From positions 1-42,846 of the forward strand of contig JAUWBN010000008.1 of the NCBI GenBank assembly GCA_030601675.1: a stretch of DNA of 42,846 nt, read 5' to 3'. Of this stretch, positions 2,855 to 32,324 are shown piece after piece; within the stretch, counting starts at the first letter, position 1; every line of letters starts with the position of its first letter. A model generated the notes under the pieces. It saw only the letters and a program-made list of their open reading frames with translations. It did no database searches and was not told where the DNA came from. A program made the translations under genes and the position numbers. This DNA comes from Hadesarchaea archaeon. Lineage in GTDB: Archaea > Hadarchaeota > Hadarchaeia > Hadarchaeales > Hadarchaeaceae.

Positions 2855-2939
2855 ATGAGAACCGCCGAATACTTTCGGTGACCGCTCTCCCCGCAAAGTA
2901 TTTAGGTGATTTGGGTGATAATAGATAGTGGGAACCAAA

Positions 2940-3344
2940 ATGAGATACAAGCTCTCTCGCGGAGCGCACTCGGTGTATGCGCTGCACTATCATCTGGTGC
3001 TGGTGACGAAGTATCGGCGGAAGGTGTTCGAGGAGGCGGTGGTCGAGCGGCTGAAAGACATCTTCTACAATATCGGCCAGAAGTTTGGTGTGGAGGTTCT
3101 GATGCAGGAACCAAACAAAGATCACATTCATATTCTGTTCGCGGCGAAACCTACCACCGAGTTGACAAAATTCATCAACGCTCTCAAGGGTGCAAGCGCA
3201 AACCGCCTCTTCCACGAGTTTCCAGAACTCAAGAAAAAGCTTTGGGGTGGGCATCTGTGGAGCCAGAGCTATTGTCTGCTTACGACAGGACAGGTGAGCT
3301 TGGACGTGCTGAAGAAATACGTGGAGTCGCAGGGTGAGCGCTGA
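2940..3344 (+). CDS. tnpA: IS200/IS605 transposase TnpA (Y1 HUH)
   Basis: Catalyses single-strand peel-and-paste transposition of the element. The HUH metal-binding motif is DHIHILF, and the nucleophile tyrosine is in the C-terminal helix LKKYVESQ. The N-terminal YALHYHLVLVTKYRR block is typical. The start is taken at the ATG of MRYKLSRGAH (2940); an ATG-less upstream extension of four residues from 2928 is possible. With about 134 residues it is full length and has no visible frameshift. Its stop overlaps the tnpB start as TGATG. Confidence 0.93.
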   Translation: MRYKLSRGAHSVYALHYHLVLVTKYRRKVFEEAVVERLKDIFYNIGQKFGVEVLMQEPNKDHIHILFAAKPTTELTKFINALKGASANRLFHEFPELKKKLWGGHLWSQSYCLLTTGQVSLDVLKKYVESQGER

Positions 3345-4534
3345 TGCAACTGACCTATCGATACAGGCTCTACCCATCACGGGCGCAGGAACAGAAGCTC
3401 CTTGCCGCTCTCGACTCGTGCAGGTGGCTCTACAACCACTTCTTGGAGCGGCTGAATCGGAAGGAGAACGGCAAAACCCCGCGACGCTACAAGCTTCAGG
3501 CAACGCTACCGAAGCTGAAACGAGAGCGCCCCGAGCTGAAGCAGGTTCACTCGAAAGTCTTGCAGATGGTTCTCCACCAGCTCTACTCGAACCTCCGCGC
3601 CCTCGCCGAGCTGAAGCGAAACGGCAGGAAAGTCGGCAGGCTCCGCTTCAAGGGACGCGGCTGGTTCAAGTCGTTCACCTACAACCAGTCGGGCTTCAAG
3701 ATCATCGAGGGACACGGGAAGCGCAGGGAGCTGCGGCTGTCGAAGATAGGTGAAATTCCAATCGTGCTACACCGCGAGCTAGATGGCGGGGTCAAGCAGG
3801 TTCACATCAAGCGCGAGCGTTCGGGCAAGTGGTTCGCCTGCTTCAGCATCGAGGTTGATGAAACACAGAAAGTCAAGAAAATCTCCAAGCCCGTCGGCAT
3901 AGACCTTGGCATCACACACTATATCGCCGATACCGATGGTAACTTCGTCGAGCACCCGCATAACATCGCCAAGTCTGAGTGGAGACTGAAGCGGGAGCAG
4001 CGCAGACTTTCGAGGAAGAAGCGCGGCTCAAAAAATAGGGTAAAGCAACGTCTCAAGCTGGCACTTGCCCACGAGCGAATCCGCAACCAACGCCTCGACT
4101 TTCTCCATAAGCTCAGTCGGCACTACATCAACAGTCACGACTTCATCGCTGTTGAGGATCTGGGTGTAAAAGAGCTAATTGAGATGGCCCACAACGGAAA
4201 AAATCGTGCGGACGCAGCTTGGGCCACCTTCCTTCATATGCTCACCTACAAGGCCGAGAGAGCTGGCAGGTGGGTCGAGAAGGTTGAGCCGTGGGGGACG
4301 ACGGATAGGTGTTCGAGGTGCGGCGAGGTGGTCGAGAAGCCGCTCTGGGCGAGGGTGCATCGGTGCCCCAAGTGCGGTTTGGAGCTTGACCGCGACCTGA
4401 ATGCCGCACGGAACATCCTTCAAGATGGGCTGAAGAAAATAGGTTGGGAGCCAGCCGAATTCGCGCCTGTGGAGATCGAGCCTCTACCCGCAAGGGCAAG
4501 CGCGGTCATCGAAGCAGGAAGCCCCGCCCTTTAG
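3344..4534 (+). CDS. tnpB: RNA-guided nuclease TnpB of the IS200/IS605 element
   Basis: A 396-residue OrfB-type protein. The N-terminal helix-turn-helix region (YRYRLYPSRAQEQKLL, CRWLYNHFLERL) is followed by a split RuvC fold: first acidic residue in VGIDLGITHYIAD (about residue 186), second in FIAVEDLGVKEL (about residue 270), a CSRCG...HRCPKCG zinc finger, then DRDLNAARNIL with the last catalytic aspartate. All three acidic residues are present, so it is probably active. By family knowledge TnpB uses an omega-RNA made from its own 3' region to cleave next to the element's target motif, which helps the element persist. Its stop codon lies inside the right-end hairpin. Confidence 0.93.
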   Translation: MQLTYRYRLYPSRAQEQKLLAALDSCRWLYNHFLERLNRKENGKTPRRYKLQATLPKLKRERPELKQVHSKVLQMVLHQLYSNLRALAELKRNGRKVGRLRFKGRGWFKSFTYNQSGFKIIEGHGKRRELRLSKIGEIPIVLHRELDGGVKQVHIKRERSGKWFACFSIEVDETQKVKKISKPVGIDLGITHYIADTDGNFVEHPHNIAKSEWRLKREQRRLSRKKRGSKNRVKQRLKLALAHERIRNQRLDFLHKLSRHYINSHDFIAVEDLGVKELIEMAHNGKNRADAAWATFLHMLTYKAERAGRWVEKVEPWGTTDRCSRCGEVVEKPLWARVHRCPKCGLELDRDLNAARNILQDGLKKIGWEPAEFAPVEIEPLPARASAVIEAGSPAL

Positions 4535-4590: not shown

Positions 4591-6906
4591 ATGATGGAGA
4601 AGGTGGCGGGAGCGGTCGAACGAAGGCCTTACCTCGTTCTGCTATGTGTGCTCTTGGTTAGCGGCTTCATGGCGTACGGCATCACGAAGGTCTCGACAAC
4701 GACCGACTTCGAGGAGTTCCTGCCTCAAGATTACCCATCGGTCAAAGTGATGTCTGAGCTCGAGGACAAATTTGGCGGTGGCCTATCGTTTGAAAGTATT
4801 TTGCTCAAAGCCGACAACGTGACGAAAGCTGACGTTATCAAGGCGATTCTCGAGCTTGAAAATACACTGAGGACGGACCCGAATCTCGAAGGCTATGCTA
4901 CCCAAGTAGTAGCCTACATCGATTACGTGATTCCATATATCGAGAACTATGAGTTCCTGCCCGATCCTCAACTTGAGGCGAGTGTTCAGTATGTATTGAC
5001 CCAACCTGGAGTGGAGAGCCGGGTTTCTGAGCTTCTGGCGGCAGATCAAAAAGCCACCTTAATTAGAGTCTCTATAAACACGGAGCTTCCCAGCGATAAG
5101 CTTTCGGAAATGACCGATGTCTTTCATAATCGTGTAAGTGAGTTCGACGAAAAACATGGGAATCTAACGACAGGTATAACTGGCGAGATCACCCTCCAAA
5201 AAGACATCCAAGGAATGATGGGCAGGGATACAAGCGTCTTAATCCCCGCGGCCATGATCCTTGTAATCCTGATTCTCTTCCTGGTCTTTCGACGGTTTTC
5301 AGACATCTTTATACCTTTTCTGCCAACCGCTTTGGGGGCGATGTGGGTAATCGGGATGCTAGGGTTCCTTGGGATGCAGTTCACAATGATCCACGTTGCG
5401 TTGATACCACTCATCCTTGGCATCGGCATAGCTTATTCAATCCACGTGCTCAACCGGTACTATGAAGAAAGGGGTAGGGGCCTACGCGTCGAAAAGGCCG
5501 TTGTAAAATCTGTCAAGACCGTCGGAGTAGCGGTTTCCCTGTCCGCGATTACAACGATGATAGGTTTCGGTTCATTTTTGATCTCAGATCTACCACCTCT
5601 TCGAGAATTTGGTGTATTTGCCGCGCTTGGAATCCTCTTTACCTTCATCTTGGCCGTGACGCTTTTGCCAGCCTTGCTCCTCATAAGGGACCGGCGAAAG
5701 GTGGGCGAAGTAAAGGCACTGGTGGCTAGACGAGGGAAAAGGGTCGACAAAGCGTTGTCGGCTGCTGCGATAGGGGCTGAGCACCATAGAAGACCGATAA
5801 TATTTGGCGTTGCTTGTATAACGGCAGTTTGTGTATTTTTGGCGCTTGGGGTATCAACGACGATGTCACTCGAGACTTTCATGCCGGGGGATGTCGAATC
5901 CATAGTTACAGCCAATGAAATAGAGGGGTACTTTGGTGGACAATCTTTCATTTTTGTTTTGGTAAAGGGCGACAATGTCACGAGTCCTCAGGGTCTACAG
6001 GCCATGCTTGTCTTGGAGAATTCAATACTTTCTGACGAGAGCAATCTGCAGAGCGGCCTTATTACGGGTTCAACTGGTTTGGCTGGGATGGTTTTACTTG
6101 CTACAAATGGTGTAATGCCACAAACAGAAAATGAGGTTATCGCGGCATTGGAGAACTTAAGGAGGGCCTATCCAACCCAGATGCAAGGACTTTTGACCGA
6201 GGATAACGAAACAACGGTGATTCTCTTTTCAGTGATCGCTAAAACAGACAAAGAGATGGGGGACGCAGCCCGAATAGTCCGAAGTCACGTGGAGGAATCG
6301 ATGGGCGGAGTTCTGGATCTGACCGTCGATGGAGCGCCTGCTGTCAGCGGAGAACCGGTTATCTTCAGCGACATTATGGGTAATCTCGCGCCGAGCATGA
6401 TAAAAACGACAATATTTGCAATACTTCTCTGTTTAATCGTTTTGTGCGTGATTTTCAGGTCTATTTTGATGGGCGCGATTGCGCTCATGCCGATGGTTTT
6501 GATTCTTGGATGGGAACTTGGGACTCTAAGAATCCTAGGATGGCCGCTCGATGTCATGACCATAGGTATATCTGCTTTACTCATAGGCATAGGGATAGAT
6601 CTTTCCATTCACATGACTTATCGCTTCAGGGAGGAGTGGAAGGAACACAAAAGGCCGCCTCAACAATCGATCCGAACCACGGTCATGAATGTGGGGACGG
6701 CTTTGCTTGCAGCCGCTGGGACGACCATGGGGGTCTTCGCCGTGCTCTCGCTCGCGAGGATGCCGATGTTGGGTAGGTTCGGCACCCTTACCGCGCTTGT
6801 GATTTTTTATGCTCTGATAGCCGCGCTCTTCATCCTACCATCAATTTTGGTAGCGTACGCACTTCGTAGGGGGAAAAAGTTGAGTGGTGGGGCCGCCGAG
6901 ATTTGA
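4591..6906 (+). CDS. RND/MMPL-family membrane exporter (HAE3-like)
   Basis: About 771 residues forming two homologous halves. Each half has one N-terminal TM helix (RPYLVLLCVLLVSGF; RPIIFGVACITAVCVF), a large external domain, then five TM helices (from LIPAAMILVILILFLVF; from TTIFAILLCLIVLCVIF). The conserved GIGIAYSIHVLNRYYEE and GIGIDLSIHMTYRFREE segments are the RND/MMPL signature helices that carry proton-relay residues. The substrate is unknown; lipids or hydrophobic compounds are usual for this group. ATG at 4591 is chosen because GGAGG sits 7 nt upstream; a GTG at 4573 lacks this. The coding sequence ends inside the oppositely oriented tRNA-Pro gene, overlapping it by about 20 bp. Confidence 0.9.
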   Translation: MMEKVAGAVERRPYLVLLCVLLVSGFMAYGITKVSTTTDFEEFLPQDYPSVKVMSELEDKFGGGLSFESILLKADNVTKADVIKAILELENTLRTDPNLEGYATQVVAYIDYVIPYIENYEFLPDPQLEASVQYVLTQPGVESRVSELLAADQKATLIRVSINTELPSDKLSEMTDVFHNRVSEFDEKHGNLTTGITGEITLQKDIQGMMGRDTSVLIPAAMILVILILFLVFRRFSDIFIPFLPTALGAMWVIGMLGFLGMQFTMIHVALIPLILGIGIAYSIHVLNRYYEERGRGLRVEKAVVKSVKTVGVAVSLSAITTMIGFGSFLISDLPPLREFGVFAALGILFTFILAVTLLPALLLIRDRRKVGEVKALVARRGKRVDKALSAAAIGAEHHRRPIIFGVACITAVCVFLALGVSTTMSLETFMPGDVESIVTANEIEGYFGGQSFIFVLVKGDNVTSPQGLQAMLVLENSILSDESNLQSGLITGSTGLAGMVLLATNGVMPQTENEVIAALENLRRAYPTQMQGLLTEDNETTVILFSVIAKTDKEMGDAARIVRSHVEESMGGVLDLTVDGAPAVSGEPVIFSDIMGNLAPSMIKTTIFAILLCLIVLCVIFRSILMGAIALMPMVLILGWELGTLRILGWPLDVMTIGISALLIGIGIDLSIHMTYRFREEWKEHKRPPQQSIRTTVMNVGTALLAAAGTTMGVFAVLSLARMPMLGRFGTLTALVIFYALIAALFILPSILVAYALRRGKKLSGGAAEI

Positions 6907-6976
6907 ACTCGGGTTTCCGGCAATTTGGCGTGAAGCCCCCAAGCCGAGAGGCTAGACCAAGCTACCCCACGGCCCC
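6885..6976 (-). tRNA. tRNA-Pro(GGG) with a 14-nt intron
   Basis: Acceptor GGGGCCG pairs with CGGCCCC, discriminator A, CCA encoded. The D-arm is GGGT/GCCT and the T-arm CCGAG-TTCAAAT-CTCGG. The anticodon stem TCGGC/GCCGG encloses 21 nt instead of 7. An intron at 6923-6936 between positions 37 and 38 restores loop TTGGGGT with anticodon GGG. The BHB is relaxed: helix TTGG/CCAA and bulges GG^G and AT^T, with only a 1-bp inner helix. Its 3' end overlaps the convergent MMPL gene; its promoter region would lie at the RuBisCO stop codon. Confidence 0.93.
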
Positions 6977-11724: not shown

Positions 11725-11830
11725 TGCCCCGGGCGGGATTTGAACCCGCGTCGCAGCCTTTCTCCGTCTGGAACTCGAAAGGGCTGTATGATTTCGGCGC
11801 TTATGCTTGACCGTCCTACACCACCGGGGC
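11725..11830 (-). tRNA. tRNA-Glu(UUC) with two introns (D-loop and anticodon loop)
   Basis: Acceptor GCCCCGG/CCGGGGC, A73, no encoded CCA. The T-arm is GCGGG-TTCAAAT-CCCGC. Intron 1 is 15 nt (11793-11807) in the D-loop: helix CGGT/GCCG flanked by 3-nt bulges CA^A and AA^A; removal gives the usual GGTCAATCAT D-arm end. Intron 2 is 16 nt (11760-11775) at 37/38: helix CTTT/GGAG, bulges CG^A and AA^A, inner hairpin GTT-CCA-GAC; removal gives loop CTTTCGA with anticodon TTC and stem CAGCC/GGCTG. Confidence 0.9.
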
Positions 11831-11885: not shown

Positions 11886-11984
11886 TGGTGGGCCCGGGGC
11901 GATTCGAACGCCCGACCACCCGGTTATGAGCTTCGCCCAACTAGAAAGTTGTCGGACGCTCTAACCTGGCTGAGCTACGGGCCC
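11886..11984 (-). tRNA. tRNA with anticodon CAU (elongator Met or Ile2), intron at 30/31
   Basis: Acceptor GGGCCCG/CGGGCCC, A73, encoded CCA, D-stem GCTC/GAGC, T-arm GGGCG-TTCGAAT-CGCCC, loop CTCATAA. A 21-nt intron (11932-11952) interrupts the anticodon stem between 30 and 31: outer helix GAG/CTC, helix CGTC/GGCG, bulges CG^A and AA^G, inner hairpin CAACT-TTCT-AGTTG. After splicing the stem is TCCGG/CCGGG. G1-C72 rules out the usual initiator. The GGGCCCG acceptor is common in archaeal tRNA-Ile, so this may be the CAU tRNA that is modified to read AUA. Confidence 0.9.
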
Positions 11985-14104: not shown

Positions 14105-14253
14105 CGCCGGGGAGAGGACTCGAACCTCTGACCGCCCGGTTGCTGTGCACAAGCATGTCGTCCTCGGTAATTGAGGTTCGTTCTTCATCCATGCTTGGTT
14201 TAACAGCCGGGTACTCTACCTACTGAGCTATCGGGCCCTTACGGTACCCCGGC
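14105..14253 (-). tRNA. tRNA-Asn(GUU) with two introns (positions 8/9 and 37/38)
   Basis: Acceptor GCCGGGG (14247-14253) pairs perfectly with CCCCGGC; G73, no encoded CCA. Intron 1 is 16 nt (14230-14245) between positions 8 and 9: outer GC/GC, helix CGGG/CCCG, bulges GT^A and AT^A. Intron 2 is 60 nt (14141-14200) at 37/38: helix CTGT/ACAG, bulges TA^A and CA^A, with an inner stem CAAGCATG/CATGCTTG. Splicing gives D-stem GCTC/GAGT, anticodon stem CCCGG/CCGGG, loop CTGTTAA and T-arm AGAGG-TTCGAGT-CCTCT. Reading the nearer GGGCCCG as the acceptor fails because it does not pair with the 3' strand. Confidence 0.88.
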
Positions 14254-14266
14254 ATTCCCCGGCATT
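14247..14266 (-). repeat. Tandem 10-bp duplication covering the tRNA-Asn 5' acceptor strand
   Basis: CCCCGGCATT occurs twice back to back (plus strand 14247-14256 and 14257-14266), so the precursor carries a second GCCGGGG immediately before the mature 5' end. Confidence 0.9.
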
Positions 14267-14285: not shown

Positions 14286-14293
14286 TCTATAAA
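14286..14293 (-). promoter_or_regulatory. TATA-like box for tRNA-Asn
   Basis: TTTATAGA on the minus strand, about 33-40 nt before the mature tRNA 5' end. Confidence 0.45.
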
Positions 14294-32218: not shown

Positions 32219-32324
32219 TGGTGCGGGGGGCAGGATTCGGACCTGCGAACCCCTTCAGGACCAGATTTCTCATGGTTTAGCCAGCTTGAGTCTGGCGCCT
32301 TTAACCTGGCTTGGCTACCCCCGC
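32219..32324 (-). tRNA. tRNA-Leu(CAA) with an 18-nt intron and C at position 55
   Basis: Acceptor GCGGGGG/CCCCCGC, A73, CCA encoded, long variable arm. An 18-nt intron (32267-32284) at 37/38 has a textbook BHB: stem CCAGA/TCTGG, helix CTCA/TGAG, bulges AG^C and AA^A, inner stem TGG/CCA. Mature loop CTCAAGA gives anticodon CAA. The T-arm is GCAGG-TCCGAAT-CCTGC: position 55, normally T (pseudouridine), is C (base 32240). Otherwise its 3' half is nearly identical to tRNA-Leu(UAG). Confidence 0.93.

Follow-up and report, generated by a model that had tools for sequence, protein, structure and literature searches.

A tRNA-Asn gene with two inserts and a duplicated acceptor strand

The window, that is the entire 42,846-nucleotide stretch of a Hadesarchaea contig that was analysed here, carries on its minus strand a tRNA-Asn(GUU) gene with two inserts (14253-14105), all of whose exons can be read directly from the sequence in order within 149 bp (Table 1). 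The genome concerned (G000) comprises 937,688 bases in 35 contigs and is estimated to be 85.6% complete. A split or permuted tRNA is ruled out by the normal order of the exons over so short a distance, and an RNA of another Rfam family by a search of the region that returned tRNA and chance matches only. Further tRNA genes, several of them with introns, lie on the same strand of the window, at 11725-11830 (with an intron around the D-loop), 11889-11984 (intron-bearing tRNA-Met of the elongator type), 6888-6976 and 32222-32324, and a tRNA with a T-loop intron was seen elsewhere in the genome (G000:C13:22199-22252). On the plus strand, two adjoining ORFs at 2928-4534 resemble a putative IS200/IS605-type TnpA and TnpB pair, as judged from the sequence by eye.

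Table 1. Features of the tRNA-Asn(GUU) locus, in window coordinates.
Feature	Position	Strand	Remark
Archaeal box A TTTATA	14288..14293	-	centre 26.5 nt upstream of the leader copy; predicted transcription start ~14264
Putative leader placeholder strand TGCCGGGG	14257..14264	-	complementary to the 3' acceptor strand and G73 (CCCCGGCG)
Linker AAT	14254..14256	-	3 nt, from leader copy to mature 5' end; 0-4 nt in relatives
Exon 1	14246..14253	-	true 5' acceptor strand GCCGGGG 14253-14247 and T8 14246; 7/7 pairing with 14112-14106
8/9 BHB intron ACCGTAAGGGCCCGAT	14230..14245	-	16 nt; kept in 9 other loci
Exon 2, positions 9-37	14201..14229	-	D-arm and 5' half of the anticodon arm
Elements of exon 2		-	A9 14229; D-arm 14228-14213; anticodon stem CCCGG 14211-14207; anticodon GTT 14204-14202; A37 14201
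Canonical 37/38 intron	14141..14200	-	60 nt; BHB CUGU/ACAG, bulges UAA/CAA
Box C-like AUGAAGA	14182..14188	-	AUGAUGA in G009; AUGAWGA in 24/24 loci
Guide-like CGAACCTC	14173..14180	-	complementary to T-arm positions 50-57 (14128-14121); CGARCCTC in 24/24 loci
Box D-like ACGA	14158..14161	-	CUGA in G033, AUGA in G012 and G020
Exon 3, positions 38-73	14105..14140	-	T-arm and 3' acceptor strand
Elements of exon 3		-	A38 14140; CCGGG 14139-14135; T-arm 14129-14113; 3' acceptor CCCCGGC 14112-14106; G73 14105

Archaeal bulge-helix-bulge (BHB) motifs were judged by two 3-nt bulges, a 4-bp helix between them and cuts between bulge bases 2 and 3. The 8/9 insert has this geometry, with outer pairs G1C2/G10C11, a central helix C3GGG6/CCCG and bulges cut as GU^A and AU^A, and the 37/38 motif is regular as well, with the anticodon stem as its outer helix and cuts at UA^A and CA^A. 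A previous sequence-only reading of this DNA had proposed introns at both positions, which is borne out by the structure and by comparison with orthologues, and direct reading confirms the 16-nt BHB that it described at 14245-14230 (GC/GC, CGGG/CCCG, two 3-nt bulges). Excision of these bases joins T8 to A9, as claimed there, and restores a normal tRNA with 7/7 acceptor pairs, T8, A9 and the D-stem, in the layout of 14 intronless orthologues that read GCCGGGG-T-R9-D-arm. The annotation trouble predicted for such a gene is real: ARAGORN missed it, and in the covariance-model check the Rfam tRNA model matched only positions 8-63, at 32.6 bits and without the acceptor. A second tRNA-Asn(GUU) gene, which had been named as evidence against the proposal, was not found in the 85.6% complete assembly. 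The earlier interpretation thus holds for the introns, their positions and the BHB, and no detail of its description that was open to checking proved wrong, but it overlooked the copy of the acceptor strand in the leader and the box C/D-like motifs within the 60-nt intron.

This copy, a second 5' acceptor strand three bases upstream of the mature 5' end, forms together with the real strand an exact 10-nt tandem repeat, AATGCCGGGG-AATGCCGGGG, at 14266-14247 on the minus strand. It is absent from the other tRNAs of the genome that have the identical GCCGGGG acceptor.

The 8/9 intron and the leader copy in Hadarchaeota

The tRNA-Asn locus was obtained from 24 of the 28 Hadarchaeota genomes compared, and 10 of these 24 loci carry the 8/9 intron, which is 15-20 nt long. 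Its bearers belong to the family of the window's genome (G000, G006, G009, G013, G018, G032) and to another family of the same order (G020-G023). Conserved in the BHB are the central helix, the outer GC/GC pairs and the 3-nt bulges, with the same geometry in all nine tRNA-Asn loci tabulated, and the inner helix of the intron shows paired, compensating changes (CC/GG, CTGC/GCAG, CCGC/GCGG). The occurrence of the same intron at nine further loci with such changes indicates that the 8/9 BHB is more than a chance structure. T8 follows GCCGGGG invariantly (10/10), while the last intron base before A9 may be T, A, G or C, which identifies the insert as intronic. Several of the 14 orthologues without it have other introns instead, in the D-stem or the T-loop. 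T-loop introns (about 58/59) were seen in the tRNA-Asn loci L003, L009, L014, L017, L020, L066 and L067 and D-arm introns in L004, L005, L012, L013, L017, L018, L020 and L067; for tRNA-Asn alone, intron sites occur at four places in the phylum.

In all ten tRNA-Asn loci bearing the 8/9 intron, a helix between the leader and the 3' end of the tRNA is possible, with a free energy of -17.4 to -24.4 kcal/mol, and none of the 14 loci without the intron reaches a leader helix better than -7.9 kcal/mol. The leaders of G009 (TGGCGCCGG) and G018 (TGGCGCTGGGG) are not plain repeats of the 5' strand; they are complementary to CCGGCGCCA and CCCCGGCGCCA, respectively, through the discriminator and CCA. Judged from these complementarities, the leader element tracks the tRNA 3' end and does not merely repeat the 5' strand. 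Archaeal transcription starts about 25 nt from the centre of box A. The distance from this centre to the start of the leader copy is 23.5-26.5 nt in all ten intron loci, so that the copy should open the transcript at the predicted start; in intronless genes it is the acceptor itself that follows box A, at 30.5-34.5 nt.

The same association was found outside tRNA-Asn. Among low-scoring tRNA matches in other Hadarchaeota, introns at 9/10 were recognized in tRNA-Lys (G020, G021, G022 and G031), tRNA-Met (G022 and G010) and tRNA-Tyr (G009), and a leader copy accompanies all seven. From leader into acceptor, tRNA-Lys of G021 reads CGGGCCC-GGGCCCG-TA and tRNA-Tyr of G009 TGGTCCCGCG-T-CCCGCGG-TA, the Tyr leader being complementary to CGCGGGACCA with pairing that reaches CCA. 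The predicted spliced products equal the intronless genes (Lys of G031, TGGCTCAG; Met, TAGCTCAG; Tyr, TAACTCAG), and no leader copy is present in the intronless orthologues read (15 loci for Tyr; G000, G003, G006, G010, G017, G018 and G024, i.e. seven, for Lys; G000 for Met).

A mechanical census covered 151 tRNA genes fetched from the 28 incomplete genomes, a selection and not every tRNA, of which 15 have an intron at the junction of acceptor and D-arm and 136 do not. All 15 junction-intron genes can form a leader helix that ends 0-4 nt from the acceptor and reaches -13.3 kcal/mol or better; the best helix at this distance among the 136 others reaches -7.6 kcal/mol, and over their whole 30-nt leaders the best is -13.9 kcal/mol, at a distance of 13 nt. 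With two tRNA-Asn loci outside the census that also have T-loop introns (G013 and G018) and likewise show the leader helix, the co-occurrence is strict: 17/17 junction-intron genes have a leader copy versus 0/136 other tRNA genes read. Relatives and low-scoring genes are over-represented in the sample, so that the census supports the rule without amounting to a complete survey, and the loci are phylogenetically non-independent, though at least four tRNA families are involved. A doubled GGGCCCG acceptor occurred in none of 152 genomes of another archaeal phylum, a weak result given that the pattern search used one acceptor sequence only.

This distribution bears on an alternative that we regard as unlikely, namely that the leader copy is a functionless scar of intron origin, left by a local duplication of the 5' acceptor, and that the 8/9 intron is spliced without it. 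Such a scar would account for the fact that most of the ten tRNA-Asn loci repeat the real strand in tandem almost perfectly, and a single gain followed by joint loss would also yield co-occurrence within one tRNA family. However, the copy accompanies introns of differing sequence in four tRNA families and has been retained in two families of the order despite the divergence of linkers and introns. Moreover, the copies of G009 and G018 are longer complements of the 3' end, CCA included, and the 14 intronless tRNA-Asn genes retain no relict copy.

A proposed placeholder on the 3' acceptor strand

The 8/9 BHB uses the gene's own 5' acceptor strand together with the first two bases of the D-stem and can therefore not coexist with the acceptor stem. 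A BHB at 9/10 likewise draws on bases of the 5' acceptor and the D-stem and so competes with the acceptor stem. We propose that the leader copy acts as a placeholder on the 3' acceptor strand until splicing has taken place. Transcription would start at the spare copy of the acceptor strand, which would form a temporary acceptor stem with the 3' acceptor strand, in many cases extended over the discriminator and CCA, so that the real 5' strand would remain available for the BHB. Once the endonuclease had cut and the exons had been ligated, the D-arm could form, and the real 5' strand, favoured by the D-arm and tertiary contacts, would displace the leader copy, which RNase P would then remove. 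We infer the strand exchange and the order of these events, as well as any checkpoint role that the leader might have against premature maturation.

Partition-function folding at 37 C is in line with such an arrangement. With the native leader, which occupies the 3' strand, the pair probability of the real acceptor stem is at most 0.014; after replacement by an A/U leader, the real acceptor stem reaches 0.83-0.997 and the BHB falls to about 0. When the central BHB helix is imposed, the energetic cost is 0.0-4.0 kcal/mol for the native leader versus 3.7-11.0 kcal/mol for the A/U leader. For G000, G009 and G018, even the native leader does not make the exact BHB the predicted optimum but only lowers its cost, and enzyme binding must therefore help. 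The gain is small for tRNA-Asn of G009 and G018 and for tRNA-Lys of G021 (2.8 kcal/mol native versus 3.7 with the A/U leader), shuffled leaders sometimes match the native one, and the motif of tRNA-Tyr of G009 lacks the outer BHB helix.

The extent of the pairing also touches on a second explanation, in which the leader mainly blocks maturation by covering the discriminator and CCA against RNase P, the CCA-adding enzyme and the synthetase on the unspliced tRNA, any help to the BHB being secondary. Pairing does reach CCA in tRNA-Asn of G009 and G018 and in tRNA-Tyr of G009, and the discriminator in tRNA-Lys of G021 and G022 and tRNA-Met of G022. Yet it ends at G73 with a U-G pair in the window's gene and covers only positions 67-72 in tRNA-Lys of G020 and G031, and we consider a mainly blocking function quite improbable.

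It was further considered whether the upstream copy is the true exon, with an intron of 26 nt (about 14256-14231) that contains the second copy, because the upstream GCCGGGG also pairs 7/7 with CCCCGGC in most tRNA-Asn loci. This very improbable reading was rejected on the evidence of T8 and of positions 6-7. T8 follows the downstream copy in every case and the upstream copy in two only (tRNA-Asn of G018 and tRNA-Tyr of G009), and it cannot derive from the base before A9, which varies. In addition, the upstream copies of tRNA-Asn and tRNA-Tyr of G009 are uncomplementary at positions 6-7 or 7, whereas the downstream copy pairs 7/7 in all loci. A decaying pseudogene or an assembly artefact, with an intact tRNA-Asn gene hidden from an assembly of 35 contigs and 85.6% completeness, has a negligible probability and was rejected, since the gene recurs at 99% identity in the sister MAG G006, all helices are intact and the tRNA-Asn genes of relatives have intact exons at the corresponding places.

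We favour, with a probability of roughly 0.7, a functional tRNA-Asn gene whose precursor would lose two BHB introns, at 8/9 and 37/38, with the leader copy as placeholder on the 3' acceptor strand. The chances are slightly better than even that the wider generalization holds as well, i.e. that junction-intron tRNA genes of Hadarchaeota obligatorily encode a surrogate 5' acceptor strand at the start of the transcript, a leader-encoded folding device and possibly a checkpoint that would have evolved in at least four tRNA families and had not been described before. The literature searched, with most subscription journals outside its reach, contained nothing relevant on Hadarchaeota tRNA introns or acceptor leader copies.

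The 37/38 intron as a possible box C/D guide

The 60-nt intron (14200-14141, minus strand) and its 23 orthologues share a box C-like motif, a guide-like stretch CGAACCUC matching T-arm positions 50-57 and a box D-like motif. Kept in all 24 loci is the arrangement AUGAWGA-RCGARCCUC, with a late box of RYGA- or CUGA-like sequence within a variable stem, and the CGARCCUC element is complementary to the T-arm around C56. Box C/D guides were taken to have a box C RUGAUGA, a box D CUGA and a guide of about 10-12 nt with the target opposite the fifth base upstream of D/D'. By comparison, box C agrees with 6/7 of the consensus in 23 loci, box D is mostly ACGA and CUGA only in G033, with GA always kept, the complementarity to the T-arm spans 8-9 nt, and there is no clear D' box (CUCA/CUCC). 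A match of 8 nt to the T-arm also arises in 5% of shuffled introns, so that the complementarity is weak by itself, and its conservation carries more weight. The Rfam search gave no snoRNA or sRNA family match to the intron, only tRNA and chance matches, which weighs little because a guide need not match any Rfam family.

All 11 genomes with a completeness of at least 90% have aTrm56 (PF01994), the enzyme responsible for Cm56. It is lacking in the nine genomes of the window's genus, the three of genus g7 and the one of g5, i.e. in G000-G008, G012, G014, G018 and G031, and G008 has an aTrm56 fragment bearing stops. Pyrobaculum aerophilum forms Cm56 without Trm56, by means of a box C/D guide system (PMC6313347), and elsewhere the intron of tRNA-Trp serves as a box C/D guide (cited in PMC7994747). 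We put the odds of a guide role for the 37/38 intron of tRNA-Asn at about even. A Trp-like tRNA of the same genome (G000 C6:20210-20261) has a 37/38 intron that contains GGATGATGA, a box C motif.

The splicing endonuclease

One PF01974 protein each was found in the 23 genomes where there was any, with open frames of 176-251 codons. That of the window's genome, the sole EndA found there, has 180 aa with an N- and a C-terminal domain, PF02778 and PF01974 (G000:C6:20512-21054; L095:213-755), and aligns over nearly its whole length with the M. jannaschii EndA (1a79), with no large insertion. The alignment suggests a homotetramer without the loop that is linked to broad specificity. Diversified archaeal introns have been tied to (alpha-beta)2 or loop-bearing endonucleases (PMC4090602, PMC12397907). 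A loop-less EndA fits the regular BHB geometry in tRNA-Asn, tRNA-Lys and tRNA-Met; the tRNA-Tyr motif of G009 fits less well. A diverged second EndA subunit could have been overlooked.

Significance and comparison with known systems

Introns in the body of archaeal tRNAs, including the acceptor and D-arm regions, are already known (PMC12397907, PMC8450103). They pose a folding puzzle, in that the splice motif needs exon bases that the mature tRNA also needs, and the leader copy is a candidate answer. It leads to a rule that can be checked in any archaeal genome, namely that an intron at the acceptor junction implies a leader copy, and it provides an annotation signature for tRNA genes that are now missed. 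Furthermore, an intron-rich tRNA set is linked here to a small EndA that appears to lack the specificity loop usually held responsible for such diversity.

The Hadarchaeota introns resemble the non-canonical BHB introns of Thermoproteales, Thaumarchaeota and Caldiarchaeum in being short, with 3-nt bulges and a 4-bp centre, in occurring several per gene and in being cut, as we presume for Hadarchaeota, by an EndA-type endonuclease (PMC8450103, PMC3293823). They differ in their position at the acceptor/D-arm junction (8/9, 9/10), in the leader acceptor copy present in every case read, and in the single EndA of M. jannaschii size without an extra loop, in contrast to (alpha-beta)2 or loop-bearing enzymes (PMC4090602, PMC12397907). 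With the tRNA-Trp guide intron (cited in PMC7994747), the tRNA-Asn intron shares the 37/38 position, motifs resembling boxes C and D and a candidate guide complementary to the tRNA that contains it; the host here is tRNA-Asn, and the predicted target is the T-loop around C56 instead of positions 34 and 39. The T-loop around C56, the predicted target here, is also that of the Cm56 guide of P. aerophilum, likewise in a lineage that lacks aTrm56 (PMC6313347), whereas the putative guide described here would reside in a tRNA intron and has been retained by relatives with aTrm56 as well. In the split and permuted tRNAs of Nanoarchaeum, Caldivirga and Thermofilum, too, a leader outside the mature tRNA pairs with the precursor and sets up the splice motif (PMC3218864). 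In contrast to these, the Hadarchaeota genes are single transcripts in normal 5'-3' order, and their leader is predicted to pair with the 3' acceptor strand of the mature tRNA instead of a trailer, and to do so outside the BHB.
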